Shown one piece after another: positions 19,623 through 53,865 of a DNA stretch of 64,000 bases. Position numbers and translations under genes: made by a program. The notes below the pieces were generated by a model that was given only the letters and a program-made list of their open reading frames with translations, was not told the origin of the DNA and searched no databases. This stretch comes from Gluconacetobacter johannae (GTDB lineage Bacteria; Pseudomonadota; Alphaproteobacteria; Acetobacterales; Acetobacteraceae): positions 1 to 64,000 of the forward strand of contig NZ_JABEQH010000018.1 of the NCBI RefSeq assembly GCF_014174305.1, in the 5' to 3' direction. Positions within the stretch are counted from its first letter, which is position 1. Every line of letters begins with the position of its first letter.

Positions 19623-19784
19623 GAGCCTGTTTGAAAATGTGGGCTGGCGAGCGAGAGCGGAGCGCAGTGAAGCGCCCGGCGTGTGTTTTTGAGCACCGAA
19701 GCGGAGCGGCCTTATGGGCCGTGAGCATCGGAGCGCAGAAAACGCGCGTCGGATCGCCGCCAGCGCGCATTTTCAAACAGGCTC
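19623..19784 (+). repeat. 162 bp element with 17 bp terminal inverted repeats (copy 1)
   Basis: The ends are a perfect inverted repeat, GAGCCTGTTTGAAAATG / CATTTTCAAACAGGCTC. Inside are two near-direct repeats, GAGCACCGAAGCG and GAGCATCGGAGCG, flanking a small hairpin CGGCCTTATGGGCCG, and an inner pair TGGCG/CGCCA. Most of the element could fold into one long cruciform or RNA hairpin. A second, inverted copy about 80% similar lies at 53702-53865. Size and ends resemble a MITE or REPIN, or a structured RNA; neither a transposase nor a target duplication is evident. Confidence 0.8.
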
Positions 19785-19808
19785 CAAGGAATGGGCGCGC
19801 CGGCGCGA

Positions 19809-20249
19809 TTACCAGATCCAGCGGCCGACATGCGCCTTCAGTTCATGGTCGGGCACCTTGACCAGATCCTTGTCCAGCACGCCGATGACCCGGCAGCCGA
19901 CCTCGGGGACGAGATTCTGGGTAATGACGGCGCTGGTGCGCGCGGGCGCCACCACTACCAGCGCGTCGTCCAGTGTCTGGCGCGCGTTGATCTGCGCCGC
20001 CACCAGGCGGGCGAATTTCTGCTTTTCCAGACTGTGCAGGTCATGGCGCGGGGCCAGGGCGTGATGGGCGGTGGAATCGCTGTGGAAACTGGCCCCCGGC
20101 GCGTCGTCCCCCAGATCGGAGGACTGCTTGTGCGCCGCCGTCGAATCGAACGATGCGATGCTGTGCAGGGCGTGGTTGTCATCCGCCTGCACAAAGCGCG
20201 CGTGCTCGCCATCCGCGATGACGAAAAGAATATTCTGTTTCCTGTGCAT
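19809..20249 (-). CDS. host attachment protein family (baeRF-like)
   Basis: 146 residues. The opening KQNILFVIADGEHARFVQAD, the middle HDLHSLEKQKFARLVAAQIN and the later DALVVVAPARTSAVI follow the 'host attachment protein' family (named from plant-associated bacteria; structurally related to eukaryotic release factor domains). It has no signal peptide and no membrane segment, so it is cytosolic and a direct role in attachment is doubtful. Members are frequently near stress genes, as here beside a CBS-BON gene. Confidence 0.8.
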   Translation of the reverse strand: MHRKQNILFVIADGEHARFVQADDNHALHSIASFDSTAAHKQSSDLGDDAPGASFHSDSTAHHALAPRHDLHSLEKQKFARLVAAQINARQTLDDALVVVAPARTSAVITQNLVPEVGCRVIGVLDKDLVKVPDHELKAHVGRWIW

Positions 20250-20323
20250 GATGTCGTGTTCCGCCGCGATCCGAGGAAATGAACAACGCCGGGCGTGCCC
20301 GCCCGTTCTACATAGGCCCCCCT

Positions 20324-21025
20324 CTATATAGGCATCGTCGTGCCCGTCATCGGTTCGACGAAGACCAGGTGGTCGATGACGGATTCGACGCCTTTCACGT
20401 TTTCCGCCGCCACGCGGGCCGCCGTCCGCAATCGGGAATCGAAGATCGCGCCGCTGAGTTCCACCACCCCGTTATGGACCTGGACGTTGATGAAGCTGGG
20501 GCCGGCCCAGCGCGGCTCGTTACGGTATTCCTCGAGGATGGCGGCGCGGATGCTGTCGTCGTCGGTGGTGCTCTCCTGCGGCGTCAGGACCTGGAGCAGG
20601 GCGCGCAGGATGTCGGCGCGCGACAGGATGCCGACCAGCCGCGCGCCGTCGAGCACCGGCAGGCGCTTGACGTGATGATGGACCATCTCGTCCACCGCGT
20701 CCTCGACCGGGGACGTGGCGGCGATGGCGATCGGCTCCGCGGTCATGACGTCGCCGACCGTGCGCCCGTGGGTGCGGACATACTCGGCCGCCGCCCGGCC
20801 GGGGGATTGCAGCAGCGTCCCCAGCCACGAGCGCATGCCCTCGGTGCCCAGTTCGCTGCGGCGCAGCAGGTCGCCTTCGGTCAGGATGCCGACCAGTTGC
20901 CCCTGCGACGTCACCACCGGCACGCCGCTCATCTTGTTGGACAACATCAGACGCGCCGCTTTTTCGATGGTGTCGAACGGATCAATCGCGATGGCCGGCG
21001 ACGTCATGATGTCCCTGACCTGCAT
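20324..21025 (-). CDS. CBS-CBS-BON domain protein
   Basis: 233 residues from the ATG at 21025 (MQVRDIMTSPAIAIDP); the frame runs further upstream but that part is low complexity. Two CBS domains occupy residues ~8-65 and ~95-155 (VGDVMTAEPIAIAATSPVED, HVKRLPVLDGARLVGILS). The C-terminal ~80 residues form a BON domain (FINVQVHNGVVELSGAIFDS). CBS-BON proteins bind nucleotides and possibly lipid or small ligands; they are common in general stress regulons. An arrangement with the attachment-family gene 74 bases downstream suggests co-transcription. Confidence 0.85.
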   Translation of the reverse strand: MQVRDIMTSPAIAIDPFDTIEKAARLMLSNKMSGVPVVTSQGQLVGILTEGDLLRRSELGTEGMRSWLGTLLQSPGRAAAEYVRTHGRTVGDVMTAEPIAIAATSPVEDAVDEMVHHHVKRLPVLDGARLVGILSRADILRALLQVLTPQESTTDDDSIRAAILEEYRNEPRWAGPSFINVQVHNGVVELSGAIFDSRLRTAARVAAENVKGVESVIDHLVFVEPMTGTTMPI

Positions 21026-21153
21026 GACACGCGCCCTTTCCCGTGGTGTGGAACGGACATGCGTCCCGGCGGACGGGGGTGCAATCCTGCTCGTGGATTC
21101 GTGATCCTGGCCGATCGGCGCAGGGGGTGTGGATCGGCGGCCCGCACGCGATC

Positions 21154-21188
21154 TGTTCAAAAAAGGGGGCTGTTCAAAAAAAGGGGGC
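21154..21188 (+). repeat. tandem duplication of an A-tract/Shine-Dalgarno unit
   Basis: TGTTCAAAAAAGGGGGC (21154-21170) is followed directly by TGTTCAAAAAAAGGGGGC (21171-21188); the copies differ by one A (six versus seven). The G-run of the second copy is the ribosome binding site for the ATG at 21193. Homopolymer A and G runs plus a tandem repeat make this a slippage-prone translation start. Confidence 0.8.
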
Positions 21189-21192
21189 GGCG

Positions 21193-21474
21193 ATGACCGA
21201 TCTGATCGACGACACGGTGCGCCATCGCTTCGAGCTTCATGCCGAAGGCGGGGTGGCGTTCGTGGCTTACACCGTGGAGGGCGGGCGGCTGGTGCTGGGC
21301 CATACCTCGGTTCCGCCCGCGCTGGAGGGGCGCGGCATCGGGTCGGCGCTGGTGCGCGCGGTCCTCGATGAAGCGCGGGGGCGGGGGATGCGGGTGGTGT
21401 CGCGCTGTTCGTTCGTCACGGCCTATATCCGCCGCCACCCGGATTATGCCGATCTGCTGGTGCGCGGCGCCTGA
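21193..21474 (+). CDS. GNAT-like N-acetyltransferase (YjdJ type)
   Basis: 93 residues, the short GNAT subfamily. HRFELHAEGGVAFVAYTVEGG opens the domain; VPPALEGRGIGSALVRAVLD is the acetyl-CoA-binding motif A, and CSFVTAYIRRHPDYADL is the typical C-terminal end. The substrate is unknown for this small subfamily. Its last 31 bases overlap the 3' end of the convergent MFS gene. Confidence 0.88.
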   Translation: MTDLIDDTVRHRFELHAEGGVAFVAYTVEGGRLVLGHTSVPPALEGRGIGSALVRAVLDEARGRGMRVVSRCSFVTAYIRRHPDYADLLVRGA

Positions 21475-22958
21475 GGATCGGTGGTGGACTCCGGCGTCCG
21501 CCGCGTCGCCAGCGGGCGTTCGGGCAGGAACAGGATGGCGACCAGCGACAGGGCGATGATCGCGGCGCCGGCCAGGAAGGTCGTGGCGATGGCGTGGCGG
21601 TAGAGCGCGACCGTCGCGGCATGGTCCCGCGCTGAACCCGCGCCCGCCGGTACGCTCCGGGCCAGGATGACGCCGGCCCCGGCGACGCCGGCCAACCCGC
21701 CCAGCGACCGGAAGAACGCCAATGTCGCGGTGCCGACGCCGCGATGGGCGACGGGCAGCGCGTTCTGCACGGCGATGGTCATGTTCGGCGTGACCAGCCC
21801 GAGGCCGCATCCCAGGGCCGTCATCGCCGGTTCGATCACGCCCAGCCCGCGCGCGGTGGCGCTGGCCCAGCCGAGGATCGCGAAGGATGCCAGCGCCAGC
21901 GTCAGGCCGCCGATCTGCGCCGGCTTGTAGCGGCCCGAGCGCAGCAGCACCCGCCCGTTGAACACCGACGAGGCGACGACCCCGATCATCAGCGGTCCGG
22001 TCAGGAAGCCGGAATGCGACGGGCTGACCCCCATGACCAGCTGGAAGAACAGCGGAAAGAACAGGCCCGCCCCCATCAGCCCCATGAACGCCAGCGCCAG
22101 GACCAGGCTGGCCACGACGAACAGCCGGTCGTGGAACAGGCCGGGCGGCAGGACCGGTTCCGGCACGCGGCGGATATGCCGGACGAACAGGAACAGCAGC
22201 AGCGCCGCCGCCGCCGCCAGGCCCGCGGTCGGCGCGGACGCCCATGCCCATTCCGACCCCCCCAGGGTCAGGACCAGCAGGAAGGCGGTGGTGGCCCCGG
22301 TCATCAGCAGGGCGCCCGGATAGTCGATCCGCCGCGCGCGGACCGGGTGACGAAACCGCCGCAACGCCCGCGTGACGACCAGCAGCGCGGCGGCGCCGAT
22401 CGGCAGGTTGAGGTAGAAGATCCAGTGCCAGGACAGCAGGTCGGTGACGACCCCGCCCGCGACCGGCCCCAGGACGCTGCACACTGCGAATACGGACGCC
22501 ACCATGCCCTGCCGCCGGCCGCGCCGGGCGGCGGGCACCAGGTCGCCGATGATGATCTGGGTGAGCGGCAGCAGGCCCCCCGCCCCCAGCCCCTGGATCG
22601 CGCGGAACAGGATCATCTGAAAAAGGCTGTGCGCTGCGCCGCACAGTACCGACCCCAGCAGGAAGGCCAGCACGGCCCCGGTCAGGACCGGCTTGCGGCC
22701 GTACTGGTCGGCCAGCTTGCCGTAGAGCGGCATGACGCTGGTCGAGGCCAGGACGTAGGCCGACACGATCCACGACATATGGGTGACGCCGCCCAGGTCG
22801 CCGACGATGCGGGGCAGGGCGGTGGCCACGATGCTCTGGTCCAGCGCGCCCAGCGCCAGGACGATCATCAGGCCGCGCACCACCGCGCGGATTTCCGCCG
22901 GTGTCGGTGCGTCGGGATCGGGCGGGGCGTCGTCGGGCGGGAGGGGCACGGCCGTCAT
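21444..22958 (-). CDS. MFS drug efflux transporter (DHA2 family)
   Basis: 504 residues, about 14 membrane helices. Signatures: ALDQSIVATALPRIVGDLGG at helix 1 (motif D1 of DHA2 transporters), GKLADQYGRKPV (motif A) and FRAIQGLGAGG with motif C SVLGPVAGGVV. It exports lipophilic compounds by proton antiport. Its start overlaps the marR stop by four bases, so the regulator and pump form one unit. Confidence 0.92.
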   Translation of the reverse strand: MTAVPLPPDDAPPDPDAPTPAEIRAVVRGLMIVLALGALDQSIVATALPRIVGDLGGVTHMSWIVSAYVLASTSVMPLYGKLADQYGRKPVLTGAVLAFLLGSVLCGAAHSLFQMILFRAIQGLGAGGLLPLTQIIIGDLVPAARRGRRQGMVASVFAVCSVLGPVAGGVVTDLLSWHWIFYLNLPIGAAALLVVTRALRRFRHPVRARRIDYPGALLMTGATTAFLLVLTLGGSEWAWASAPTAGLAAAAALLLFLFVRHIRRVPEPVLPPGLFHDRLFVVASLVLALAFMGLMGAGLFFPLFFQLVMGVSPSHSGFLTGPLMIGVVASSVFNGRVLLRSGRYKPAQIGGLTLALASFAILGWASATARGLGVIEPAMTALGCGLGLVTPNMTIAVQNALPVAHRGVGTATLAFFRSLGGLAGVAGAGVILARSVPAGAGSARDHAATVALYRHAIATTFLAGAAIIALSLVAILFLPERPLATRRTPESTTDPQAPRTSRSA

Positions 22959-23410
22959 TGTCCGATCTCGGCCAGCGGTTCGATGGCCGCGCGGATCGCC
23001 TGTCGGGCGTCCGGCGACAGGCGGGCCAATGCGCCGGCCAGCCAGTCGGTGCGGCGCCGGCGCAGGGCGGCGATGGTCGCCTGCCCTTGCGAAGTGACGG
23101 CAAGGCCGGTCCGTCGCCGGTCGTGGGGCGAGGACGCGCGGTCCAGCAATCCGGCGGCGACCAGGGATTTGACATGGGCGCTGATCGTCGGGCCCCGCAC
23201 ATTCTCGCGGCGCGCCAGTTCGGCGACACCGATGCCCGGATGGTCCATGACGACGGTCAGCAGAAGGGTCTGCAAGGGGGAAAGGCCGGCTTCGCCGTCC
23301 TCGCGCCGCAGCCGGCGATAGAGGCGGTGCAGCGTCGGGCGCAGGGTTTCGGCCAGGTCGGCGGCGTCGTCCAGGGGGCCGGTGTCGGCGGGTAAGGTTG
23401 GGGACGGCAT
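22955..23410 (-). CDS. MarR family transcriptional regulator
   Basis: 151 residues. A winged helix-turn-helix is visible: GIGVAELARRENVRGPTISA (recognition helix) and the wing SSPHDRRRTGLAVTSQG, with the family's DRR motif. Members repress efflux or catabolic genes until a phenolic-type ligand binds. It probably represses itself and the downstream DHA2 pump through the palindrome at 23433-23447. Confidence 0.92.
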   Translation of the reverse strand: MPSPTLPADTGPLDDAADLAETLRPTLHRLYRRLRREDGEAGLSPLQTLLLTVVMDHPGIGVAELARRENVRGPTISAHVKSLVAAGLLDRASSPHDRRRTGLAVTSQGQATIAALRRRRTDWLAGALARLSPDARQAIRAAIEPLAEIGQ

Positions 23411-23432
23411 GGTCGAAGGACCCGTTGCTGCT

Positions 23433-23447
23433 TAGGTAGAAAACCTA
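23433..23447. promoter_or_regulatory. candidate MarR operator
   Basis: TAGGT-AGAAA-ACCTA is a perfect 5-base inverted repeat with a 5-base spacer, starting 22 bases upstream of the marR ATG, where it would overlap the promoter. The immediate flanks are AT-rich. MarR-family regulators bind palindromes of about this size beside their own genes; the match is by position and symmetry. Confidence 0.5.
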
Positions 23448-23602
23448 TCTATATGCATTGTTGGCGGCTGTGCAATATTGATGCGTGCAATTCCCCGCGC
23501 GACTCTATAGCATAGCGCGCGGCTGGACTTTTTGGCCTCGGCAGGATCGCACAAGAGCCGCTCGGCGAAGTTCTGGTCTCTCCATTTTAAAAAGTCTCGA
23601 TG

Positions 23603-23620
23603 CCACGCATGTTCGCGTGG
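23603..23620 (+). promoter_or_regulatory. hairpin in the cold-shock gene leader
   Basis: CCACGC-ATGTTC-GCGTGG forms a perfect 6-base stem in the 5' leader of the cold-shock gene, 13 bases before its AGGAG ribosome binding site (23634-23638). Cold-shock mRNAs are often controlled by leader structure that shifts with temperature. A second inverted repeat (CCGCGCG at 23495-23501, CGCGCGG at 23516-23522) lies upstream, in the likely promoter region. Confidence 0.4.
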
Positions 23621-23645
23621 AAGCCCGAATATCAGGAGACCTGCA

Positions 23646-23852
23646 ATGGCGACAGGTACCGTAAAGTGGTTCAACTCGGAGAAGGGTTACGGCTTTATCC
23701 AGCCGACCGACGGCTCCAGCGATGTGTTCGTGCATATCAGCGCGGTCGAGCAGGCCGGGCTGCGTAGCCTGAACGAGGGACAGAGCGTCAGCTACGAGCT
23801 GGAGAAGGGCCGTAACGGCAAGACCTCCGCCGTGGGTCTGAAGGCGGAGTAA
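23646..23852 (+). CDS. cspA: cold-shock protein, CspA family
   Basis: 68 residues, a single cold-shock domain. RNP1 is KGYGFIQP and RNP2 is VFVHISAV, with the aromatic residues that stack on single-stranded nucleic acid ([13 protein letters not shown]). It acts as an RNA chaperone. The start has an excellent ribosome binding site. Two hairpins follow the stop codon. Whether it is truly cold-induced, rather than one of several constitutive paralogues, cannot be told. Confidence 0.95.
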
Positions 23853-23858
23853 GTCCCA

Positions 23859-23894
23859 GGCCCGGTCGGACGGGGTGACCGGTCCGGCCGGGCC
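23859..23894 (+). terminator. strong hairpin 6 bases after the cold-shock gene
   Basis: GGCCCGGTCGGAC (23859-23871) pairs with GTCCGGCCGGGCC (23882-23894) with one G-U pair and a 10-base loop. It begins just after the stop codon. No T-run follows, so it may serve mRNA stability or Rho-assisted ending. Confidence 0.45.
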
Positions 23895-23927
23895 AGGCGA
23901 TCGTCCCGGTGACGGTGACGTATCCGG

Positions 23928-23964
23928 AAATGGCGGCGTTCCCTTTTTGGGGGCGCCGCCATTT
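23928..23964. terminator. second hairpin, possible terminator
   Basis: AAATGGCGGCG (23928-23938) and CGCCGCCATTT (23954-23964) form a perfect 11-base stem around a loop containing five T residues. The A-run/T-run ends make it look like a bidirectional intrinsic terminator separating the cold-shock gene from the cellulose region. Confidence 0.45.
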
Positions 23965-24117
23965 CTGCTTTCGGGGCGTCGTGCGGCGGCGGATTTTGGT
24001 GGGGACGCCGATTGAGGTAATGCTGATGGCCCAACCGTGTCACGGGGCGGCGCGCGACGGCGCCCGGCGGGTTTTTCGGGGCCTCGGCCCCCGGTCGTGA
24101 GGGGTAGCAGAGGTCCG

Positions 24118-25191
24118 ATGACAGCGTTTCTTGCTCGGCGTCATGTTCTGGCAGGGGTGGCCGGGGGGGCGATGGCGACCTTGCAGCCCGGGGGCCGCGC
24201 CGCGCGGGCCGCCGGCATGGATGACTGGACGTTCTATCGGCGGCATTTCGTTTCGCCCGACGGGCGTGTGATCGACAATGGCAACGGCAATGTCTCCCAT
24301 ACCGAGGGGCAGGGGTATGGCATGCTGTTCGCGCAGGCGTTCGACGACCGTGAAACGTTCGACAGCCTGTTTCGCTGGACGGAAAGGACGTTGCGTCACC
24401 AGGGCGATGCGCTGCACGCCTGGCATTACCTGCCCGATGCGCCGAACCACGTGCCGGAAAGCGAGAACGCGACGGACGGCGACCTGCTGATCGCGCTGGC
24501 GCTGACCCTGGCGGGCGACCGCTGGGGGCGGCAGGACCTGACCGCTGCCGCCTGCGCGATCTATGCCGCGCTGCGCGAAAAAATCGTGGTCCAGGCGGGG
24601 GCGTACACCGTGCTGCTGCCGGGCCTGTACGGGTTTGCCTTCCCGGACCGCGTGGTGCTGAACCCGTCCTATTACATCATGCCGTCCTTGCTGGCGGGGG
24701 CGCTGCTGGACGACGCCGGCCTGTGGATGCGGGTGGTGCGCGACGGGCGGCGCCTGTTGCATCAGGGGCGCTTCGGGCGGTGGAACCTGCCGCCGGACTG
24801 GCTGTCGCTGCCCAGGGTCGGCGGCGTGCCGGGAATCGCCCAGCCCTGGCCGCCCCGCTTTTCCTACGATGCCATCCGCGTGCCGCTGTACCTGCAATGG
24901 GCGGGGATGCTGGATGCGCCGATGCGGACGTCGCTGCGGCGATATTGGGGGGCATGGGGTGCGGACGGCCTGCCGGCCTGGGTGGATCTGAAGACCGGCG
25001 AACGTGCGCCCTATGGCGCCCCGCCCGGCTTCCACGCGCTGGGCGTCGCCTGCGGCCTGGCGGACCCGTCGGATTTTCCCGCGATGGAGGCCAACACCAA
25101 TTATTATTCCGCGTCGCTGACGCTGCTGTCGCGGCTGGTGCAGGAGGGGATGGCCGCCGGCATCATGCGCCAGGCGGCCTCGGGGGGGTGA
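24118..25191 (+). CDS. bcsZ: GH8 endo-beta-1,4-glucanase of the cellulose operon (CMCax/BcsZ)
   Basis: 357 residues from the ATG at 24118 (the frame is open upstream but is not coding-like). The leader has adjacent arginines (LARRHVLAGVAGGAMATL), consistent with an export signal that may use Tat. The GH8 general acid is in SHTEGQGYGM (about E63) and an acidic pair in ENATDGDLL (about 120-122); NPSYYIMPSLL and NTNYYSASLTLL are family patterns. The enzyme trims disordered glucan chains in the periplasm and is needed for normal cellulose in acetic acid bacteria. It lies 273 bases upstream of the ccp-like gene, as in Komagataeibacter. Confidence 0.93.
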   Translation: MTAFLARRHVLAGVAGGAMATLQPGGRAARAAGMDDWTFYRRHFVSPDGRVIDNGNGNVSHTEGQGYGMLFAQAFDDRETFDSLFRWTERTLRHQGDALHAWHYLPDAPNHVPESENATDGDLLIALALTLAGDRWGRQDLTAAACAIYAALREKIVVQAGAYTVLLPGLYGFAFPDRVVLNPSYYIMPSLLAGALLDDAGLWMRVVRDGRRLLHQGRFGRWNLPPDWLSLPRVGGVPGIAQPWPPRFSYDAIRVPLYLQWAGMLDAPMRTSLRRYWGAWGADGLPAWVDLKTGERAPYGAPPGFHALGVACGLADPSDFPAMEANTNYYSASLTLLSRLVQEGMAAGIMRQAASGG

Positions 25192-25226
25192 TGTTGCGGG
25201 CCGGAAAGCGTGCCGATCTGCCGTTC

Positions 25227-25254
25227 TTGCAGTGGATTGGTTCTATGTTATAAA
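25227..25254 (+). promoter_or_regulatory. sigma70-like promoter before the ccp-bcs genes
   Basis: TTGCAG (25227-25232) and TATAAA (25249-25254) are 16 bases apart in the only AT-rich patch between the endoglucanase and the ccp-like gene. A transcript from here would have a leader of about 200 bases before the ATG at 25465. I see no c-di-GMP riboswitch core in that leader. Confidence 0.5.
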
Positions 25255-25464
25255 AATTTCCCAATCATTTTACTCTGCCTCCGGACCGTCGTGGAAGCGG
25301 TGTTCGGGTTTCATGCGGCGAGGGTAAGGATATTTGGGATGATATCGGGACCGGTGGTGCCGGCCGGGCCGTGAAGAAGGGCTGGCATCCGCCCTGATGC
25401 GGCTAAGGCGGGGGCCGGGCCGCGATGCCTATTTCCCGATGGATGGTGTTTCAGGGGTGCCTTG

Positions 25465-26100
25465 ATGGCAAACGATACCGACGCCGATTTCCCGTTGTTG
25501 AACGCCGCATTGCCGTCGGCGGGTCCGGCCGGCGTGAATGATGCCGGCGCCACCGATGTCTCGGGCCTGCGGGTCGCGGTGGGCGAGCCGTCGTTTCCCT
25601 ATCGCGCCTTCGACAATCTCGACCGGATTCACCCCGGTTCCGTCGCATCGCGGGCCGCGCCCGCCGACCCTTCGCCCCTCCCGGCGGCGGTGGCGGCCCC
25701 GGCCACGCCGCTGTCGGGCCTGGCGGGGTTGGGCGGCATCGAACCGCCCGCCCCGTGCGATGGCGGCGTCTTGTCCGGCCTGGCCGCCGTGCCGGCTGCA
25801 GCGGCCCCGGCGTCTTCCTTCCCCGCGTCGGCGCGGCCGCCTTCGGCCCCTTCCGATGCGCCGCACGGCCTTGCGGGGCTGGCCGGCCTGGGTGGTCTTG
25901 GCGGCGTGCCGGCCGGCGGGATGTTCTCCGCTCCGGCGGCCCAATCCCCGGCGGCCCAGTCCCCGGCAGTGGAACGCGCGCCCGTGCGTTCGCCCGAGCC
26001 CGCGCGCGGCATCAGCCTGAGGGAGATGTTCTCGGTCCTGCGCCGGGCGGCCCCGCCTGCCGGGCCGTCGGACACCAGCCTTCGGGATATTTTCCGCTGA
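25465..26100 (+). CDS. bcsH: proline/alanine-rich cellulose-complementing protein, CcpAx (BcsH)/BcsP-like
   Basis: 211 residues, about half Ala, Pro, Gly and Ser, no signal peptide or membrane segment. Recurrent modules PLSGLAGLGG, VLSGLA and GLAGLAGLGGLGG are separated by Pro/Ala linkers, and the C-terminus has two similar short helices, ISLREMFSVLRR and TSLRDIFR. Position (between endoglucanase and bcsQ-bcsAB) and composition match the cellulose-complementing protein of acetic acid bacteria and the proline-rich BcsP of other cellulose operons, cytoplasmic scaffolds that bind BcsD and line up synthase complexes. Sequence identity to characterised CcpAx cannot be judged here; it is shorter. 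ATG is preceded by an in-frame TTG. Role is inferred mainly from context. Confidence 0.7.
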   Translation: MANDTDADFPLLNAALPSAGPAGVNDAGATDVSGLRVAVGEPSFPYRAFDNLDRIHPGSVASRAAPADPSPLPAAVAAPATPLSGLAGLGGIEPPAPCDGGVLSGLAAVPAAAAPASSFPASARPPSAPSDAPHGLAGLAGLGGLGGVPAGGMFSAPAAQSPAAQSPAVERAPVRSPEPARGISLREMFSVLRRAAPPAGPSDTSLRDIFR

Positions 26101-26170
26101 CCGCGCGGATGTCCTGCCATCGCGGCATGGGGCCTGGGACGATGACGGATGCGGCGGCGAAGGGTTTTCG

Positions 26171-35297: not shown

Positions 35298-35298
35298 C

Positions 35299-39709: not shown

Positions 39710-39739
39710 GCCGTGCCGCCGAGGCGCGCGCGTCGATAT

Positions 39740-43933: not shown

Positions 43934-43957
43934 CAGGGACGGGTGGGCGAGACCGGC

Positions 43958-44344
43958 ATGATTGCCCATTTTTCCGATCACGCCGCCAACGAGCGGACCT
44001 TCCTGGCCTGGATCCGCACCGCGCTGGCCGTCATGGCGTTCGGGTTTCTTGTCGAACGGTTCGACCTGTTCCTCCAGGTTGCGGCGGCGTCGCTGGGCGG
44101 CCACCGCGTCTTCGTCGGCCGGCACCTGTTCGGCGATATCGTCGGCCTGCTGCTGTTGCTGCTGGGCGGGGCGATGATGGTGGTCGCGACCCTGCGGTAC
44201 CGGCGGATCCGTCGCGGGATCGAGGCACAGGACATGCAGGCGGGCGGCGGTGGCCGGACCGACCTTGTCCTGATCGGGATCCTGCTGTTGCTGGGCGGCG
44301 CGCTGTTTGTCTATCTGGCCTACAATGTCCTGGCGTCGCCGTAA
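43958..44344 (+). CDS. DUF202/YidH family membrane protein
   Basis: 128 residues from the ATG at 43958 (a GTG at 43943 is possible). DHAANERTFLAWIRTALAVMAFG is the DUF202 signature, followed by two more helices (IVGLLLLLLGGAMMVVATLRY and LVLIGILLLLGGALFVYLAY). Small inner-membrane protein of unknown role. It follows the cytochrome b561 by 24 bases and probably shares its transcript. Confidence 0.88.
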   Translation: MIAHFSDHAANERTFLAWIRTALAVMAFGFLVERFDLFLQVAAASLGGHRVFVGRHLFGDIVGLLLLLLGGAMMVVATLRYRRIRRGIEAQDMQAGGGGRTDLVLIGILLLLGGALFVYLAYNVLASP

Positions 44345-44500
44345 GGACATGCCATTGCCCGATCAGATTAAAAGAAAAATTAAAATATAGTTGCGCGGCG
44401 GCAAACTGCCTTAGGCTGTCGCCGTGGCCGGGTGTCCGCGTTGCGCGCGTGCCGGTCTGAGGACACGGGCATAACGCTTGCGCGCGGCGGTGGTGGGTCG

Positions 44501-47126: not shown

Positions 47127-47143
47127 GGAGGGAGGCTGGTTCA

Positions 47144-48136
47144 TCAGATGCGGGTATCGGGACGGATGCCCGTCCGGGGCGAGAGATGCAGGATATAGGT
47201 CGGGTTGCGGATCAGCCGGCCCGGCCCGGTGGCGACGGTGCGGACCGTATGGCTGAGTTCGATCTCGTCGTGATGTTCCAGCGCGACCGAAAAGACGTGC
47301 TGCCGCCACGACAGCGCGGCCTCGAACTCGGACGCTTCCTGCCCGTAGCGCAGGCTCATCCCGTCCTGCCGGACGATCTGCCCGCCGGCCAGGGTCAGCA
47401 TCGCGACACCGGCGGCCACCGTCGCGGCATGGCCGATATGGCGGAACAGATGGTCGTGCAGGCGCGGCAGGATGTGGCGCATCAGCACCGAAGACAGGAT
47501 CGCCGCCATCGCCACCGCCAGCCCGACGGTCATCGCCCGGGTCGTCAGCAGCCCGAAGCCGGCGTACAGGCCCAGCTTCATCAGATGCAGCAGGATCTCG
47601 TTCGCGGCCCGGGTCGCGACGATTTCCTCCTTGCACAGGCCCAGGCGGCGATAGAACCCGTTGAAGACCAGCCCCACCGCCCCGGTAAAGCCCGACAGGA
47701 ACCCGGCCGCCGCCCCCGTCGCGACCAGCCACCCCAGCCGGACCGGCCGGTCGGAAACCGGGCGCGGCGCGCGGAACAGAAGCGGCAGGTTGCCCATCAG
47801 GAACAGGCCCAGCAACACATCCAGATAGGCCGGGTTCATGCGGCTCAACCCCCAGGCGCCCAGCGCCGCGAAGGGCAGGGCGGCGGGGGCGAAGCGCCAG
47901 ACCACCGCCCAGCGGATGGACCGGCGGAACGTGGCGATGCGGGCCAGCGAACTGGCCGCCGTGCCGATCGACAGGGCGGCGGGCACCTGCGCCGCCGGGA
48001 CGACCAGCCCCAGCAGAGGCATCAGGATCAGCCCCGCGCCGCCGCCCGAGACGGTGCTGAGGCCGAAGGCGAAAACCGAAGCGACCAGGATCAGGCACCA
48101 GACGAGCATGCGTCGCAATTTCCGTGATCGGGGCAC
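47144..48136 (-). CDS. TauE/SafE-like permease
   Basis: 330 residues (an ATG at 48109 is an alternative start). Eight or so membrane helices. GLSTVSGGGAGLILMPLLGL and the second half-repeat TGAAAGFLSGFTGAVGLVFN match the TauE/SafE family, proposed exporters of sulfite, sulfoacetate or other organosulfur anions. The C-terminal ~60 residues are soluble and not typical of the family. Substrate unknown. It is convergent with the diguanylate cyclase and divergent from the response regulator. Confidence 0.82.
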   Translation of the reverse strand: MPRSRKLRRMLVWCLILVASVFAFGLSTVSGGGAGLILMPLLGLVVPAAQVPAALSIGTAASSLARIATFRRSIRWAVVWRFAPAALPFAALGAWGLSRMNPAYLDVLLGLFLMGNLPLLFRAPRPVSDRPVRLGWLVATGAAAGFLSGFTGAVGLVFNGFYRRLGLCKEEIVATRAANEILLHLMKLGLYAGFGLLTTRAMTVGLAVAMAAILSSVLMRHILPRLHDHLFRHIGHAATVAAGVAMLTLAGGQIVRQDGMSLRYGQEASEFEAALSWRQHVFSVALEHHDEIELSHTVRTVATGPGRLIRNPTYILHLSPRTGIRPDTRI

Positions 48137-48300
48137 ATGTCGCGGGGGCGACGGCGGGCCGTTGACGGCATCATCATGACGTCCGGCCCTGCTGAAATCA
48201 GGTTAAAACCTCCCAATCTGCCGCACCTGCCCTTTCGTGGGGGGCGGGCGGCTTCTATCGTCGGCGTCGCTGTCGTGGTCCGTCGGCCGGACCCTGTGGA

Positions 48301-49050
48301 ATGGAGAACCCCGATCGTGTCGGGCATGAGATCGTGACGGGGATCGGTGCGACGACCCGCCTGCTGCTGGTTGAGGACGACCCCGATACCGCCGCCTATG
48401 TCCGCAACGGCCTGGCGCATGAGGGGATCGCCGTCACGATCGCCGACAACGGGATCGACGGCCTGTCCACGGCCTTGGGCCGGGAATGGGATGCGATCGT
48501 GTTGGACCGGATGCTGCCGGGCATGGACGGCCTGTCCATCCTGACCCGCCTGCGCGAGGCCGGCAGCCATATTCCGGTCATCTTCCTGACGACCATGGAC
48601 GGGGTCAGCAGCCGCGTCGGCGGATTGCGCGGCGGGGCCGACGATTATCTGGTCAAGCCGTTCGCCGTGCGCGAACTGGCGGCGCGCATCGCCGTCCTGC
48701 TGCGCCGGGTCGGCCCGACGCGGCATGTGACCGCCCTGCGGGTGGCGGGGATCGTGCTCGACCTTCTGACGCGGGAGGTCACCCGCCATGGCCGGAAGAT
48801 CCTGCTTCAACCGCAGGAAGTGAAGATCCTTGAATATTTCATGCGAAATCCCGAGACGATCCTTTCGCGCCAGATGCTGCTGCATTATGCCTGGAACGTG
48901 GATTTCCCGGTCCGCACGAATATCGTCGAAACCCATATCAGCCGCCTGCGCGACAAGCTGGGACATGACGGCCGGCAACTGATCCAGACCATCCGGGGTG
49001 TGGGCTATGTCATGAGGGACAGCGATCTTGGCAGCATTCCCCCCGGCTAG
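48301..49050 (+). CDS. OmpR-family response regulator
   Basis: 249 residues from the ATG at 48301; a GTG at 48334 closer to the receiver domain is possible. Receiver: LLLVEDDPDT (acidic pocket), VLDRMLPGMDG (phosphoacceptor ~D69), DYLVKPFAVREL (lysine). The C-terminal winged helix shows RQMLLHYAWNVDFPVRTNIVETHISRLRDKLG-type order, as in the QseB/PmrA group. Its 3' end overlaps the kinase start by 23 bases. Confidence 0.92.
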   Translation: MENPDRVGHEIVTGIGATTRLLLVEDDPDTAAYVRNGLAHEGIAVTIADNGIDGLSTALGREWDAIVLDRMLPGMDGLSILTRLREAGSHIPVIFLTTMDGVSSRVGGLRGGADDYLVKPFAVRELAARIAVLLRRVGPTRHVTALRVAGIVLDLLTREVTRHGRKILLQPQEVKILEYFMRNPETILSRQMLLHYAWNVDFPVRTNIVETHISRLRDKLGHDGRQLIQTIRGVGYVMRDSDLGSIPPG

Positions 49051-50476
49051 GGGCCGGATCGCCGCGATCGTCAGGGTCGTTTCCAGTCTCTCGTTCCGGA
49101 TCGTCATTCTGTTCGCGGGTTTCCTGATGCTGTCGGGCATGCTGGTCATCCTGCTGTCGGGCCTGCACAGCCAGCGCTCGCTGCAAGGCCAGATCCGCCA
49201 TGCCGTGGCGACCGAGCGGGCGGAGGTGCTGTCGGCGGCGGGGGGGCAGGATCTGGGGCACATGCTGCCCGTGGTCCGGAACCTGGTCCGGAACGAACCC
49301 GCGTTCTTCTATCTGCTGCAAGATGCGTCCGGCGCGGTCCTGGCCGGCAACATGCTGCATCTTCGCCCGGTTTCCGGCAGCCGCTGGCTGTCCTGGGCGC
49401 ACCGGCTGCCCTTTGGGCTGAACGATATCCCGGTCTATGGCGAAGGGGTCGTGCTGGCGGATGGCGGCTATTTCTTCGTGGGCATCGATGCCTCCCCGCT
49501 GAGCCGGCTGCGGCGCGACATCGGGGCGATCGTGATCTGGAGCCTGTGCGGATTCTGCGTGCTGGGCATCGGCGGCGGCCTGATCCTGAGCGCCGTGATC
49601 CTGCGGCGGATCGAGACGATCAGCGTGACCGCCCGCCGGATCATGAGCGGCGATATCTCGCAGCGGATTCCCTATCAGGGGACGGACGACGAATTCGACC
49701 ATCTCGCCCACAGCCTGAATGCGATGCTGGAACAGAACGAAAGGCTGATCGCCAGCCTGCGGCAGGTGTCCAACGATATCGCGCATGACATGCGCCGTCC
49801 GCTGTCGCACCTGCGCCAGCGGCTGGAGACCGCGTCCCTTGCCGAGCATACGCCCGCCGGGTTCCGGGCGGCGATCGACGATGCGGTCATCGACCTCGAT
49901 CTGGCACTGGAGATCTTTTCCTCGCTTCTGCGCCTGTCGCGGATCGAGGGCGGGATCGCGACCGACACGATGATGCCGGTCGCCCTCGACACCGTGACGG
50001 CGCAGGTCGCCGAACTCTATCGCCCGGCGGCCGAGGACCGGCATCAGGCCCTGCTCGTCGCGTCCCCGGTGTCCGGGACGGTCGCCGGCGATCCGGTCCT
50101 GCTGATGCAGATGCTGTCCAACCTGGTGGAAAACGCCCTCAACCACACGCCGGACGGCAGCCGGATCACCATCAGCGGCGTGGCGGACGGCGAGCGGGTG
50201 ACGCTGGTCGTGGCCGATGACGGGGCCGGCATTCCCACGGGCAGCCGCGAGCGTGTCTTCGACCGTTTCGTGCGCCTCGACAGCAGCCGCTCGGTGCCGG
50301 GCAGCGGCCTGGGGCTGAGCCTGGTGCGCGCGATCGTGCGCCTGCATGGCGGGAGCATCACCCTGTCGGACAACCGGCCCGGTTTGCGCTGTACGATCGT
50401 TCTGCCGCATATCGCCTTATTCAACCCTGTGCGGGATGCGGGCCCGGCCAGGGAACAGCCAGGAAACATGATGTGA
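49028..50476 (+). CDS. membrane sensor histidine kinase
   Basis: 482 residues from a TTG at 49028 that overlaps the response regulator; a later start is possible. Two membrane helices (IVILFAGFLMLSGMLVILLSG and IVIWSLCGFCVLGIGGGLIL) bound a ~115-residue periplasmic sensor. HAMP is followed by the H-box NDIAHDMRRPLSHLRQRLE, N-box LLMQMLSNLVENALNHT, and GSGLGLSLVRAIVRLHGG. HDMRRPL is unusual for the HDLRTPL consensus. Its stimulus is unknown. Confidence 0.92.
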   Translation: MAAFPPARGRIAAIVRVVSSLSFRIVILFAGFLMLSGMLVILLSGLHSQRSLQGQIRHAVATERAEVLSAAGGQDLGHMLPVVRNLVRNEPAFFYLLQDASGAVLAGNMLHLRPVSGSRWLSWAHRLPFGLNDIPVYGEGVVLADGGYFFVGIDASPLSRLRRDIGAIVIWSLCGFCVLGIGGGLILSAVILRRIETISVTARRIMSGDISQRIPYQGTDDEFDHLAHSLNAMLEQNERLIASLRQVSNDIAHDMRRPLSHLRQRLETASLAEHTPAGFRAAIDDAVIDLDLALEIFSSLLRLSRIEGGIATDTMMPVALDTVTAQVAELYRPAAEDRHQALLVASPVSGTVAGDPVLLMQMLSNLVENALNHTPDGSRITISGVADGERVTLVVADDGAGIPTGSRERVFDRFVRLDSSRSVPGSGLGLSLVRAIVRLHGGSITLSDNRPGLRCTIVLPHIALFNPVRDAGPAREQPGNMM

Positions 50477-51315
50477 GCACCACGTCCGAACGACCGGAAT
50501 CGCGCCCTCTGGCTGTCGTGACCGGGGCGACCGGTGGAATCGGGCGGGAAATCGTCGCCCTGCTGGTCGGTTCCGGCTATCGCGTGACGATCCTGGCGCG
50601 CGGGGGCGCGGCTTCGCCGGGCGTTGCGTCCGGCGGCCCCGCGTGGGGGGCGCATGTCGCGGCGGTGTCCTGCGACCTGGCCCGGGTGGAGTCCATCGCC
50701 CAGGCGGCGGCCGCCATCGTGGCGGCGGGCGATCCGGTCATGCTGCTGGTTCATTGCGCGGGGGTCATCAGCCCGGGGCAGGGCGATGGCCTGTGCGGCG
50801 ACGGCGTGGCGCGGCAGGTTGCCGTCAATCTGACGGCCCCGATGCTGTTGACCTCGCGGTTGCTGGAATGCATGCCGCGGGGCGGCCATGTCGTGTTCGT
50901 CAATTCCATGGCCGGCGTGATGCCCCTGCAGGGCAGCGGGGTCTATGCCGCGACCAAGTTCGGGCTGCGCGGCTATGCCCTGTCGCTGGCGCTGGACCTG
51001 CGCCCGCGCGGCATCCGCGTGTCGTCCGTCTTCCCCGGGGCGGTCGATACGCCGATGCTGTGGCGGGAAATGGCGGAAGGCGGGTCCGTCCTCAATTTCG
51101 TCAGCCCGCCCGCCGCCCCCGCGGACGTGGCGCGGCGGATCGTCGCGGTCTGCCGCCGGCCGCGGCGCGAGGTGTTCCTGCCCCCGCTGGACGGAATGTT
51201 CGCCAATCTCTGCCTGCTGCTGCCCGGCGTGTTGCGCCTGTCCCTGCCGCTGCTGACCTTCAGTGGCCGCCGGGGCTATCGCCGGTTCCAGAAGCGTTGC
51301 GGGCCTGTGGAATAG
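50473..51315 (+). CDS. short-chain dehydrogenase/reductase
   Basis: 280 residues from a GTG that overlaps the kinase stop (GTGA). NAD(P)-binding VVTGATGGIGREIVALL, HCAG motif, catalytic serine in FVNSMAGVMP and the YAATK pair (Y-x3-K). PGAVDTPM follows as in classical SDRs. The C-terminal ~50 residues contain a hydrophobic stretch (LCLLLPGVLRLSLPLL), possibly for membrane association or a lipid-like substrate. Its place in a two-component operon suggests that the system adjusts lipid or envelope metabolism, but this is inference. Confidence 0.88.
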   Translation: MSTTSERPESRPLAVVTGATGGIGREIVALLVGSGYRVTILARGGAASPGVASGGPAWGAHVAAVSCDLARVESIAQAAAAIVAAGDPVMLLVHCAGVISPGQGDGLCGDGVARQVAVNLTAPMLLTSRLLECMPRGGHVVFVNSMAGVMPLQGSGVYAATKFGLRGYALSLALDLRPRGIRVSSVFPGAVDTPMLWREMAEGGSVLNFVSPPAAPADVARRIVAVCRRPRREVFLPPLDGMFANLCLLLPGVLRLSLPLLTFSGRRGYRRFQKRCGPVE

Positions 51316-51324
51316 GCATGAAGG

Positions 51325-51394
51325 CAAGGGCTTCGCCCTTGACTCACCAAAGGGCGCAGCCCTTTGGAAACCCAGGACTTTAATAAACGAATGG
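51325..51394. repeat. modular hairpin repeat, copy E
   Basis: Contains CAAGGGC-TTC-GCCCTTG (51325-51341) and CCAAAGGGC-GCA-GCCCTTTGG (51347-51367), followed by GGAAACCCAGG and ACGAATGGG, which copy A also has near its third hairpin, in the other order. It starts 10 bases after the SDR stop codon, between it and the imuA promoter. Confidence 0.83.
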
Positions 51395-51446
51395 GATGCA
51401 TGGGCCGCGGATCTGGCGCGGGATTCCGCTTTCCTTTCGCTTATTT

Positions 51447-51461
51447 GTTCTCTATATGTTC
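51447..51461 (+). promoter_or_regulatory. LexA (SOS) box upstream of imuA
   Basis: GTTC-TCTATAT-GTTC is an exact match to the alphaproteobacterial LexA box GTTC-N7-GTTC. It ends 17 bases before the imuA ATG, so LexA bound here would block transcription of the mutasome genes until DNA damage. The TCTATAT spacer may also form the -10 element. Confidence 0.85.
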
Positions 51462-51478
51462 CAATCCCGGAGGGGGAC

Positions 51479-52288
51479 ATGACGAGAACGGACCGAACCG
51501 ACATGCTGGCCCGCCTGCGCGGGCAGATCGCCCGGATGGAGCGGAATGCCGCCCGCGTCGCGCCGGATGCGGGATGGGGCGATGGTCCGGCGCCCTGGGG
51601 GCTGGCGGTGCCCGAGATCGACCGGCATCTGCACGGCGGTCTGCTGCGCGGTGCGGTGCATGAGGTGATCGGCCAGGGCGGGGACATGACGCTGGCGGTC
51701 CTGCCGGCGCGGTTCGTCGCCCATGTCCTGGGGGTGGGCGACGGCCCTGTGGTCTGGATCGGGGGCGGCCTGTTCGACCTGCATGCGGACGGGCTGGTCC
51801 GGGCGGGGGTCGATCCCGGCCGCCTGCTGGGTGTCGCGGCGGGGCGGGACGACATGCTGGCGGTCTGCGAGGATTCGGTGCGGGCCTGCGGCGTCGCCGC
51901 GGTGGTGGCGGAACTGGACGGCGCGCTGTCGCTGACGGCGTCGCGCCGCCTGCAACTGGCGGCCGAGGGCTCGGGCGCCACCTGTTTCCTGATCCGCCGG
52001 TCGCGGCGGCCGGACGATCGCACCCTGTTCCAGCCGACGGCCAGCGCGACCCGCTGGCGCATCGCCGCCCTGCCGTCGCCCGCCCCCATCGCGGGGGTGC
52101 GGGGCGTCGGCGCGGCGCGCTGGTCGGTGGATCTGCTGCGGTGCCGGGGCGGGCGGCCGGGCTCATGGATCGTGGAGGTGGGGGATGCGCCGGATCGTCT
52201 CGTTATGGCTGCCGTTCCTGCCGGTCGAGCGACTGCGGCGGCGGCATGCCCTGTCGCCGGACCGGCCGCTTGTCACGCGGTCGCATGA
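51479..52288 (+). CDS. imuA: ImuA, RecA-like protein of the SOS mutasome
   Basis: 269 residues from the ATG at 51479 with AGGGGG just upstream. DRHLHGGLLRGAVHEVIGQGG aligns with the start of the ImuA/SulA-like RecA fold, though the canonical Walker A lysine is missing. It ends in an Ala-rich tail (AGRATAAAACPVAGPAACHA) that lies in the 104-base overlap with imuB. ImuA helps bring ImuB and DnaE2 to damaged DNA for error-prone translesion synthesis. Confidence 0.9.
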   Translation: MTRTDRTDMLARLRGQIARMERNAARVAPDAGWGDGPAPWGLAVPEIDRHLHGGLLRGAVHEVIGQGGDMTLAVLPARFVAHVLGVGDGPVVWIGGGLFDLHADGLVRAGVDPGRLLGVAAGRDDMLAVCEDSVRACGVAAVVAELDGALSLTASRRLQLAAEGSGATCFLIRRSRRPDDRTLFQPTASATRWRIAALPSPAPIAGVRGVGAARWSVDLLRCRGGRPGSWIVEVGDAPDRLVMAAVPAGRATAAAACPVAGPAACHAVA

Positions 52289-53702
52289 CGGGCGCCGGCA
52301 GGTGATCGCCGCCGCCGACCCGGCCGCCCGCGCCCAGGGGGTCGTGCCCGGCCAGCCCCTGGCCCAGGCGCAGGCGCTGGTCCCCGACCTCCAGGTCCTG
52401 GCGGCGGACCCGGATCGCGATGCCGCCGATCTGGCGCGGCTGGCCGGCAGGTGCCTGTGGATGTCGCCGCTGACCGCGCCGGACGGGGTGGACGGGATCT
52501 GGATCGACGCGTCCGGCTGCGCGCACCTGCATGGGGGCGAGCCTGCGATGCTGGGCCGGTTGCTGGACGACCTGGGGCGGCTGGGCCTGTCCGGCCGGGT
52601 TGCGATCGCCGACACGCCGGGGGCGGCCCATGCGCTGGCCCGGCATGGCCGGTCGCGGCTGGCGGTGCTGCCGGCGGGCGCGCCGGAGACCCTGTTCGAT
52701 TCCCTGCCGGTCGAAGCCCTGCGGATTGCCGGCGACACCGCCGACATGCTGCACCGGCTGGGCCTGGGGCGGATCGGCGCGGTGCGCGCAGCGCCGCGCG
52801 CGCCGCTGGCCCGCCGCTTCGGGCCGCTGCTGCTGACGCGGCTGGACCAGATGCTGGGGCGGGTGGCGGAACCGATCCGGCCGGTCCTGGCGCCGGAGAT
52901 CGTCCAGGCCCGGCGCGGCTTCGTCGAACCGATTTCCACGCCAGACGCCTTTCGCGTCGTGATCGACGCTCTGGTCGCCGAGGCCTGCACGGCGCTACGC
53001 CGGCGGGGCGAGGGCGCGCGGCGGCTGGATCTGGTCTTCGAACGGGTGGACGGGACGGCGCGCGCGGTCCGGGTGGGCACGGCGCGGGCGGTGCACGATC
53101 CGGCGCATCTCGGCCATCTGCTGGCGGAACGGATCGAAAGCGTGGAACCCGGTTTCGGGGTCGAGGCGATGCGCCTGCTGGTCACGGCGGCCGAACGATG
53201 CGCGCCGGTCCAGGATGGCGGAGGCCGGAGGGGGATCGGGGATGAGGCGGACCTGTCGGTGCTGGTCGATCGGCTGTCCAATCGCCTGGGGCCGGAGCGG
53301 GTCTTTCGCCTGGCCCCCGTGGCCACCCATGTGCCCGAGCGCCGCCAGCGCCGGGTGCCGGCCGACCGTGCCGGCGGGGGCGGGACCTGGTCGGCCGACT
53401 GGCCGCGCCCGATCCGCCTGTTGCCGGCGCCGGAACCGGTGCGGGTGACCGCGCTGCTGCCCGATCATCCGCCGCGCGCCTTCATCTGGCGCCGCTCCCG
53501 GCACGAGGTCGTGCGGGCCGACGGGCCGGAACGGATCCTGGGCGAATGGTGGCGACCCGCGACCGATGCCGACAACGACCGGGTGCGCGAGTACTGGACC
53601 GTCGAGGACCGCGACGGCCGGCGCTTCTGGCTGTTCCGCCGGGGGGACGGGCAGCATGTCTGGTCGGGCGATCAGGGATGGTTCCTGCATGGCTTTTTCT
53701 GA
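52185..53702 (+). CDS. imuB: ImuB, inactive Y-family polymerase homologue
   Basis: 505 residues. RRIVSLWLPFLPVERLRRRH stands where active Y-family polymerases have the catalytic D-x-D-x-F-Y start, so the acidic residues are absent, as in all ImuB. It acts as the hub binding the beta clamp, ImuA and DnaE2. RPVLAPEIVQARRGFVEPI and the C-terminal VREYWTVEDRDGRRFWLFR are ImuB-specific. The stop codon coincides with the first base of the terminal-repeat element at 53702. Confidence 0.93.
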   Translation: MRRIVSLWLPFLPVERLRRRHALSPDRPLVTRSHDGRRQVIAAADPAARAQGVVPGQPLAQAQALVPDLQVLAADPDRDAADLARLAGRCLWMSPLTAPDGVDGIWIDASGCAHLHGGEPAMLGRLLDDLGRLGLSGRVAIADTPGAAHALARHGRSRLAVLPAGAPETLFDSLPVEALRIAGDTADMLHRLGLGRIGAVRAAPRAPLARRFGPLLLTRLDQMLGRVAEPIRPVLAPEIVQARRGFVEPISTPDAFRVVIDALVAEACTALRRRGEGARRLDLVFERVDGTARAVRVGTARAVHDPAHLGHLLAERIESVEPGFGVEAMRLLVTAAERCAPVQDGGGRRGIGDEADLSVLVDRLSNRLGPERVFRLAPVATHVPERRQRRVPADRAGGGGTWSADWPRPIRLLPAPEPVRVTALLPDHPPRAFIWRRSRHEVVRADGPERILGEWWRPATDADNDRVREYWTVEDRDGRRFWLFRRGDGQHVWSGDQGWFLHGFF

Positions 53703-53865
53703 AAGCCCGCTTGAAAACGCATTTTGCCGGCGATCCGACGCGCGTTTCCTGCGCTTCGGTGCTCACGGCCCTCAAGGCCGCTCCGCTCCGATGCTCGCAA
53801 ACCCACGCCGGGCGTGCCGCTGCGCGACACTCTCGCTCGGCAAAAAGCGTTTTCAAACGGGCTTT
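53702..53865 (-). repeat. 164 bp element with terminal inverted repeats (copy 2, inverted)
   Basis: The ends AAAGCCCGCTTGAAAACGC and GCGTTTTCAAACGGGCTTT are inverted repeats with one mismatch in 19. Read on the minus strand it aligns along its length with copy 1 (19623-19784), including CGCCCGGCGTG, GAGCATCGGAGCGGAGCGGCC, GGGCCGTGAGCACCGAAGCG and ACGCGCGTCGGATCGCCG-like blocks. The ends differ between copies but stay complementary within each copy, so pairing has been kept. It fills most of the imuB-dnaE2 gap. Confidence 0.8.

Follow-up and report, generated by a model that had tools for sequence, protein, structure and literature searches.

What is the element of 162 bp that occurs twice, in opposite orientation, within the first 64,000 nucleotides of a Gluconacetobacter johannae contig (NZ_JABEQH010000018.1, assembly GCF_014174305.1; this whole stretch is hereafter the window), and why do its ends remain complementary within each copy while differing between the copies? 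The initial annotation, made from the letters alone, proposed either a mobile unit resembling a miniature inverted-repeat transposable element (MITE) or a REPIN, or a structured RNA family, and took the preserved pairing as a mark of selection on structure or of paired mutation. The analysis reported here points to a palindromic MITE family whose copies have been retained, and probably exapted, at the 3' ends of genes, a reading to which we assign, from sequence comparison, a probability of about 55%. What the annotation missed is the position of the family at stop codons and its fixed orientation there.

Fold of the element and the strand that carries it

Both copies measure 162 nt and lie on opposite strands, with 79% identity across 160 aligned bases (roughly 80% over the whole length had been estimated), and the boundaries first proposed are exact for copy 1 and one base too wide at each end for copy 2 (Table 1). 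The terminal repeats diverge between the copies and are complementary inside each, as originally described, and the internal direct repeat (GAGCAYCGRAGCG) is located twice in each copy. Since the unit of this repeat is self-complementary (GC-A-YCGR-A-GC), its two occurrences in a copy form a helix together. Folding of 149-nt pieces gave z values of -5.7 for copy 1 and -7.6 for copy 2 against dinucleotide shuffles, with none of 200 shuffles equalling the native fold, and each copy scores 173 bits with the covariance model of the family.

The consensus derived from 68 diverse copies contains 62 pairs arranged as a three-way junction, with a terminal stem P1, a side hairpin P2 and a long arm P3-P5; P1 comprises 30 pairs, formed by the arms together with GCGA/UCGC with a bulged A, and P4 is the direct repeat paired with itself. 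The underlying alignment (A2) was reduced from 98 copies to 72 by a 92% identity filter, after which four were removed by hand (L012, L229:423 and L244:187, array or odd-armed, and L045, from another genus; L and G numbers are our designations of loci and genomes). Changes on both sides occur in 49 of the 62 consensus pairs, paired cells amount to 96.2% compared with 79.6% in shuffles, and the covariation score is 0.467 versus 0.149; none of 500 shuffles reaches any of five covariation measures, although these shuffles do not preserve relatedness and the P1 rows had been chosen for matching arms, and slid structures pair at 34-42%. The check for covariation that had been suggested at the outset thus comes out strongly and, together with the strand-specific tolerance of wobble pairs described below, bears out the option of a structured RNA family.

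The terminal arms extend over some 28 bp. Over their first 20 nt the identity between copies is 55%, and left and right arms within a copy match at 88%, a statistic based on 94 distinct arm pairs out of the 99 copies kept of 110; the 11 excluded candidates had fewer than 17 of 28 matching arm positions, an exclusion that favours pairing in P1. Two G.U pairs are themselves conserved (columns 86-103 in 63 and columns 62-127 in 55 of the 68 rows). In many diverged copies a U.G wobble and then a mismatch, often G.G, recur in mid-arm at P1 columns 18 and 20 of A2, and some old copies (L290, L475 and L482 by the model, L477 by eye) have kept both arms and lost inner parts of the fold. No family of Rfam 15 reaches its gathering score for the element, the window yielding tRNA only, and at E ≤ 10 the surroundings of copy 2 give two matches, both far under gathering scores.

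Single changes within the stems distinguish the two strands. On a tree of 175 elements, noisy and built from short sequences, with changes counted by parsimony, Watson-Crick pairs changed to plus-strand G.U in 162 cases (C>T 111, A>G 51), to A.C in 81 (G>A 55, T>C 26) and to other mismatches in 108. The ratio of G.U to A.C has a binomial p of 2e-7, and unpaired sites are without this bias (C>T 22/1551, G>A 90/4514, A>G 46/5206, T>C 33/1884). Pairs were restored 107 times from G.U, nine times from A.C and 23 times from other mismatches. Among 38 independent ortholog pairs the corresponding ratio is 64:21, or 52:15 once three false array pairs are subtracted; for helix P4 alone it is 7:10. Furthermore, 174 of the 175 copies have the lower predicted energy on their plus strand (mean -17.1 versus -5.1 kcal/mol; 60 composition shuffles). 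Because G.U exceeds A.C on one strand, unlike at unpaired sites, what is kept is the fold of the plus strand, whether in RNA or in single-stranded DNA.

Mobility of the family and its place at stop codons

The count of two copies holds for the window and not for the genome, which has 28 places, corresponding to 34 model matches of which 6 are reverse-strand echoes of another match. The search of relatives that had been proposed revealed a multicopy family in all 14 same-genus genomes, with 34, 77, 143, 37, 40, 40, 82, 77, 7, 98, 112, 73, 8 and 32 model matches per genome (E ≤ 0.001; the counts include the own genome, partial copies and reverse-strand echoes, with scoring limited to 150 candidates per genome). 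When genomes from across the order were sampled, matches at E ≤ 1e-4 came from 37 of 299 genomes, representing 15 of 65 genera and all belonging to the same bacterial family, the share of other families among the 299 not being stated. BLAST with copy 2 matched 25 of 100 relatives, and gave one weak match (G069, E 7e-5) among 40 other-family genomes. The phage collections held no match for copy 2, and the plasmid collection held one match to copy 1: 59 bp with 83% identity to the element core on a Phyllobacterium plasmid (NZ_CP104971.1, 545545-545604), outside Acetobacteraceae. The length is exactly 162 nt in 81 of 99 copies, and the G+C content of full copies is 0.56-0.74, so that they are not AT-rich as MITEs usually, though not by requirement, are (PMC2229807).

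The element appears to be a non-autonomous transposon. It has terminal repeats, is too short at 162 bp for a transposase gene, and lies between 3-bp TNA duplications with a target consensus of C-TNA-G; among 178 flanked copies, orthologs and array members counted, identical TNA stands on both sides in 25 (best offset) and TNA on the right flank in 109. At the nuoA locus, genome G009 is uninterrupted (...GTTTTTAAGGAATGG) where the window has TTTTTAA-element-CAAGGAATGG, an exact empty site which, with the duplications, supplies the trace of mobility that the initial annotation had suggested looking for; empty sites after ychF are seen in relatives too. The family also contains near-identical young copies and a 57-bp deletion derivative (L091) flanked by TGA on both sides. 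The supposition of a mobile unit is therefore upheld; a REPIN, strictly defined, finds no support, since the unit is 162 bp long and has TNA duplications and IS5-like ends.

Ends similar to those of the element are found in IS5-family insertion sequences (ISs) of relatives, which measure 883-930 bp and have TAA or TTA duplications; two of them lie in G001, L216 (897 bp, ends GAGTCCGTTTGAGAATGG/GAGCCTGTTTGAGAATGT, TAA duplications) and L201 (883 bp, TTA duplications), and two 274-aa IS transposases match NF033580 (E 1.8e-67 and 3.1e-70). A transposase of IS5 type would mobilise the element. The IS1031 group of IS5 elements, which has a TNA target, shares with L216, L201 and L199 terminal repeats and 3-bp TNA duplications; the members of that group are, unlike the element, autonomous, 0.9 kb long and transposase-encoding. 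Palindromic target sites are not enriched (3.02 versus 3.08 of 10 positions complementary, n=96). At six places in the own genome, each near a contig end (L002, L006, L008, L015, L024, L025), an element end adjoins one foreign sequence, ...CAGGCT-TGTCTTATGCATTCCG..., which is probably an IS that targets the terminal repeat and has collapsed in assembly. At L084 (G003 C1:546700) a transposase-bearing insertion, which we take to be IS1182-like, directly follows the first ~34 bases of the element's left end.

The position relative to genes is asymmetric. Genes were called with a home-made scorer of codon use, trained on seven genes of the window. In 111 of 125 copies (mostly those with the best model scores) the right-hand neighbour is a minus-strand gene, to which the folded plus strand is antisense. 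Its stop is no more than 3 bp away from the right end of the element in 84 of the 125, compared with 2 for the mirror case of a left-hand plus-strand gene. Counted in the same way, stops at the right end versus mirror cases number 17 versus 1 in G003 (the 28 best of 38 places, the ten weakest left out), 10 versus 0 in the own genome (20 of 28 places, one with edges extended by hand) and 11 versus 1 in other genera (16 loci, 16 genomes), these sets having some copies in common with the 125 and their counts being taken from listed distances. At the best offset the right flank reads TCA, the reverse complement of a TGA stop, in 83 copies and TGA in 7, and the left duplication is TCA in only 34.

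The gene ychF illustrates this arrangement, its stop position being unchanged in 14 of 14 genomes, element present or not. Five genomes have the element at this stop (G003, G012, G009 and G002 by the model, G008 by eye), all five with TGA; G011 and G013, also with TGA, have a doubtful relic only; and in the seven genomes without the element the stop is TAA in four, TAG in two and TGA in one. The G002 copy differs in its arms and has a TGA duplication of its own, so that it probably arose by a separate insertion, at the identical base and with unchanged orientation. The possibility that the adjoining stops belong to truncated genes is not supported: the products of the five stop-adjacent right-hand genes compared with Pfam (YchF, Lpd, LpxC, CysE and a CNNM/CorC protein) reach the end, or nearly the end, of their last profile. 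Within the window, copy 2 begins at the base after the imuB TGA (Table 1), and copy 1 is not stop-adjacent, lying 24 bp from a host-attachment gene at a site that is empty in G009. The imuB-dnaE2 element of G009 seems to have been lost by deletion between short CG[CT]TTGA repeats.

Probable retention and arm rewriting, and possible function

Stops are more frequent beside the element than among comparable sites: 14 of 51 CT[CG]AG sites outside genes are stops, and 27 of 48 copies in G003 and the own genome are stop-adjacent (Fisher p 0.004). Young copies (GAGCCTGTTTGAAAATG arms, n=21) have TCA on the right flank in 5 cases and TGA in 6, versus 83:7 overall (Fisher p 0.0004), the overall set containing the young copies; four of the six young TGA cases are at contig ends beside a foreign repeat. 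Since target orientation is balanced among young copies and skewed overall, copies in the stop place and orientation would be preferentially retained, and we read the overall pattern as selective retention. Insertion might instead be aimed: a transposase complex recognising an asymmetric site would target stop codons in a fixed orientation. The C-TNA-G consensus, the single orientation of all five young stop-placed copies and the probably two independent insertions at the ychF stop (the type of G003/G012/G009 and that of G002) are as expected from such a mechanism, which is nevertheless unlikely in view of the near-equality of TCA and TGA in young copies and of the proportion of comparable non-coding sites that are stops by chance.

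Also significant is the way in which pairing is preserved after insertion. Among 2353 pair cells compared between orthologs, 185 differences are compensated (83 transitions, 94 transversions, 8 via G.U), 119 are single (64 G.U, 21 A.C, 34 other mismatches) and a further 26 fall in neither class (15 are double changes to unpaired, 11 are of other kinds). The counts include three false pairs from within arrays, and the compensated count is an upper figure because some "orthologs" are array neighbours, with an extra copy in one species. At one locus traced through four species by its common downstream flank (L249, L364, L321, L425), G002 and G007 have flanks 96-99% identical and differ in 8 arm pairs, all compensated, and G010 and G005, with flanks 97% identical, differ in 3 compensated pairs and one G.U. 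At another (L250/L267/L256/L258/L259), G004 and G011 have 97-99% identical flanks and an identical left arm. The right arm of G011 has the outer sequence found in G010/G005 and matches its left arm at 11 of 20 positions. The right arm of G004 shows 10 differences from that of G011 in these 20 positions and agrees with the left arm at 19 of them (counts by eye). The probability of ten right-arm changes at 3% divergence is ~1e-9, and the difference is the trace that template switching between inverted-repeat arms, presumably during replication, would be expected to leave.

Template switching is known to yield multibase compensatory stem changes in one step, mainly in rRNA and microRNA genes (PMC8794818); here the hairpins so maintained would belong to a dispersed bacterial mobile element. 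That such switching homogenises the palindrome by itself, with no selection on the fold, agrees with its precedent in RNA genes, with the 94 of 185 compensated changes that are transversions and cannot pass through G.U, and with the right arms of G004 and G011, where all change lies on that side and runs towards the left-arm complement. We nonetheless hold a purely mutational origin of the pairing to be very improbable, as it predicts equal numbers of G.U and A.C changes, not 162:81 with an opposite tendency at unpaired sites and 107 restorations against 9, and leaves the conserved G.U pairs and the stop-codon pattern unexplained. There is evidence, then, for both of the processes between which the initial annotation had left the choice, selection on structure from the wobble asymmetry and paired mutation from arm rewriting and compensated changes.

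Tandem arrays in one orientation, often with 3-5 bp spacing, occur at L229, L231, L232, L230, L401, L383, L241, L381 and L247, and good pairing between the two arms of a copy is, in most of these arrays, confined to the last copy, the upstream copies resembling chimeras of old and new. Comparison of L037 and L237 with L399 and L385 places a second element 3 bp behind an existing one in G007 ([A]GCA[B]) and G002 ([A]GTA[B]) and none there in G004/G001 ([A] alone). The element's own edge is a recurrent target, and we infer that arrays arise by insertion behind an old copy followed by unequal exchange; duplication of the upstream flank fits worse than a new copy inserted 3 bp behind the old one.

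On the reading of retention and exaptation, a palindromic, GC-rich MITE family of Acetobacteraceae spread into TNA sites (C-TNA-G), probably by IS5-type transposition. Its 162-nt plus strand is predicted to fold into the long terminal stem P1, the side hairpin P2 and the long arm P3-P5, a fold that persists long after insertion through compensatory change and plus-strand G.U tolerance, with arm-to-arm template switching probably rewriting one arm to fit the other; the sequence patterns of such rewriting are those described above. Copies behind a stop, with the right arm towards the gene, would be retained preferentially, probably as gene-end elements. The folded strand, antisense to the upstream gene, may form a barrier or a processing hairpin against transcripts that run against the gene and come from a convergent neighbour or from divergent promoter noise; this appears to be the most likely action, though it is put forward tentatively. 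It is rather doubtful that the whole family has been domesticated as a gene-end device, in which an antisense-strand fold would guard 3' ends from opposing transcription and stems would be renewed by arm rewriting. If so, tens of genes in some genomes would end directly in a 162-nt structured element.

A purely selfish MITE, whose fold serves mobility or is a by-product of its palindromic ends and whose stop bias comes from the loss of harmful insertions, would account for the target-site duplications and empty sites, for near-identical young copies and the 57-bp derivative with its duplication, and for losses in some species. DDE transposition does not require covariation in interior helices, which the element has, and orthologous stems stay paired after insertion (185 compensated against 119 single changes); nor are copies placed indiscriminately outside genes, 84 of 125 lying within 3 bp of a stop, and we regard this explanation as improbable. 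An intrinsic terminator is unlikely, TTTT occurring within 12 nt of the end in just 4 of 179 (plus) and 6 of 179 (minus), and a 3'-UTR hairpin in the mRNA of the right-hand gene would have to form on the minus strand, to which the wobble data do not point. Minus frame 0, which extends the upstream gene past its stop, is the frame most often open, in 142 of 175 copies, so that a read-through peptide is conceivable, or the frame merely reflects GC-rich DNA; open frames are common in short GC-rich DNA.

Several observations weigh against retention and exaptation at gene ends. No stop adjoins 41 of the 125 copies; imuB-dnaE2 copies are lost or truncated in G009 and G008, and ychF lacks the element in 7 of 14 genomes and is doubtful in 2, so that no locus is shown to need it. 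Five of the 14 young copies with gene context (L005, L009, L017, L088, L089) are already at a right-hand stop, with no mirror case, and all are one-way, as insertion bias would give. As the strand of the fold is antisense to the upstream gene, a simple role as a 3' hairpin of the mRNA does not fit. Part of the wobble asymmetry could come from some unrecognised strand-biased repair process. At least one frame is free of stops in 173 of 175 copies, so that stops alone leave a coding role possible; it is set aside because of the covariation. Lastly, the search for a partner transposase found no autonomous IS with element-like ends in the own genome (three PF01609 matches, two loci checked).

Known systems and the two copies in the window

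By analogy, the nearest precedents for a role at gene ends would be REPs near stop codons (PMC12306157) and ERIC and NEMIS elements (PMC2229807). The ERIC (or IRU) elements of enterobacteria are intergenic, MITE-like units of 127 bp with a stable transcript fold and an orientation-dependent effect on the neighbouring mRNA (PMC2229807). The present element is likewise short, intergenic, MITE-like and folded; unlike ERIC, with its 7-bp terminal inverted repeat and 5'-TA-3' termini (PMC2229807), it has 3-bp TNA duplications, a 30-pair P1 and a three-way junction, and its copies abut stop codons, ERIC being set apart here by description. The Correia or NEMIS elements of Neisseria measure 107-155 bp, with a terminal inverted repeat of 24 bp and a fold proposed to act on RNA via RNase III (PMC2229807). 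Compared by description, they are similar to the element in size and fold and differ by their TA termini and host. REPs are RAYT-linked palindromes with a GTAG or CGTC end and are not known to have target duplications. They measure 20-40 bp (PMC3733652), their palindromes lower translation when ≤15 nt from stop codons, and ~11% of the REPs of E. coli lie within 15 nt of a stop (PMC12306157). Like REPs, the element places a palindrome beside stop codons; unlike them, it is 162 bp long with IS5-like ends and TNA duplications. Lichenicola cladoniae belongs to Acetobacteraceae. In this species 1,369 REPs have been counted (PMC12306157), some of which may belong to the present family.

A search of titles and abstract openings, in which subscription journals are thinly covered, found no publication that describes this family or MITEs abutting stop codons. 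Structure-based roles of bacterial palindromic repeats are much debated and seldom testable. In the present family, orthologous copies with comparable flanks number in the dozens, and one stop codon is seen both with and without the element. Together with a snapshot of arm-to-arm rewriting and a strand-specific wobble signal, this makes it possible to test directly if a MITE turns into a gene-end element of its host, and how compensatory changes arise. The overall picture suggests a DNA parasite put to use at gene ends.

Table 1. Features of the two element copies in the window.
Feature	Position	Strand	Basis
Copy 1, full 162-bp element, young GAGCCTGTTTGAAAATG subfamily	19623..19784	+	alignment, covariance model
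Copy 1 left arm, terminal inverted repeat and inner stem of P1	19623..19649	+	fold, consensus structure
Copy 1 right arm	19758..19784	+	fold, consensus structure
Copy 1 direct repeat 1 GAGCACCGAAGCG, 5' side of helix P4	19691..19703	+	pairing in fold
Copy 1 direct repeat 2 GAGCATCGGAGCG, 3' side of helix P4	19723..19735	+	pairing in fold
Copy 1 left target duplication TAA	19620..19622	+	empty site ...GTTTTTAAGGAATGG in G009
Copy 1 right target duplication CAA, one change away from TAA	19785..19787	+	G009 comparison
Copy 2, full 162-bp element between imuB and dnaE2	53703..53864	-	alignment, covariance model
imuB stop codon TGA, equal to TCA target duplication (minus-strand reading) at copy 2 right arm	53700..53702	+	
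Copy 2 left target duplication TCA	53865..53867	-	
Copy 2 direct repeat 2 GAGCACCGAAGCG	53752..53764	-	
Copy 2 direct repeat 1 GAGCATCGGAGCG	53784..53796	-	
Copy 2 side hairpin P2, GTGTCGC-GCA-GCGGCAC	53814..53830	-	fold, consensus structure

The surroundings of copy 2 (51263-57062, plus strand) we take to be an imuA-imuB-dnaE2 mutagenesis cassette, in part from an IMS domain match. Relatives of its dnaE2 among named organisms, which place the window in Acetobacteraceae, are found in Komagataeibacter, Acetobacter, Asaia and Gluconobacter.

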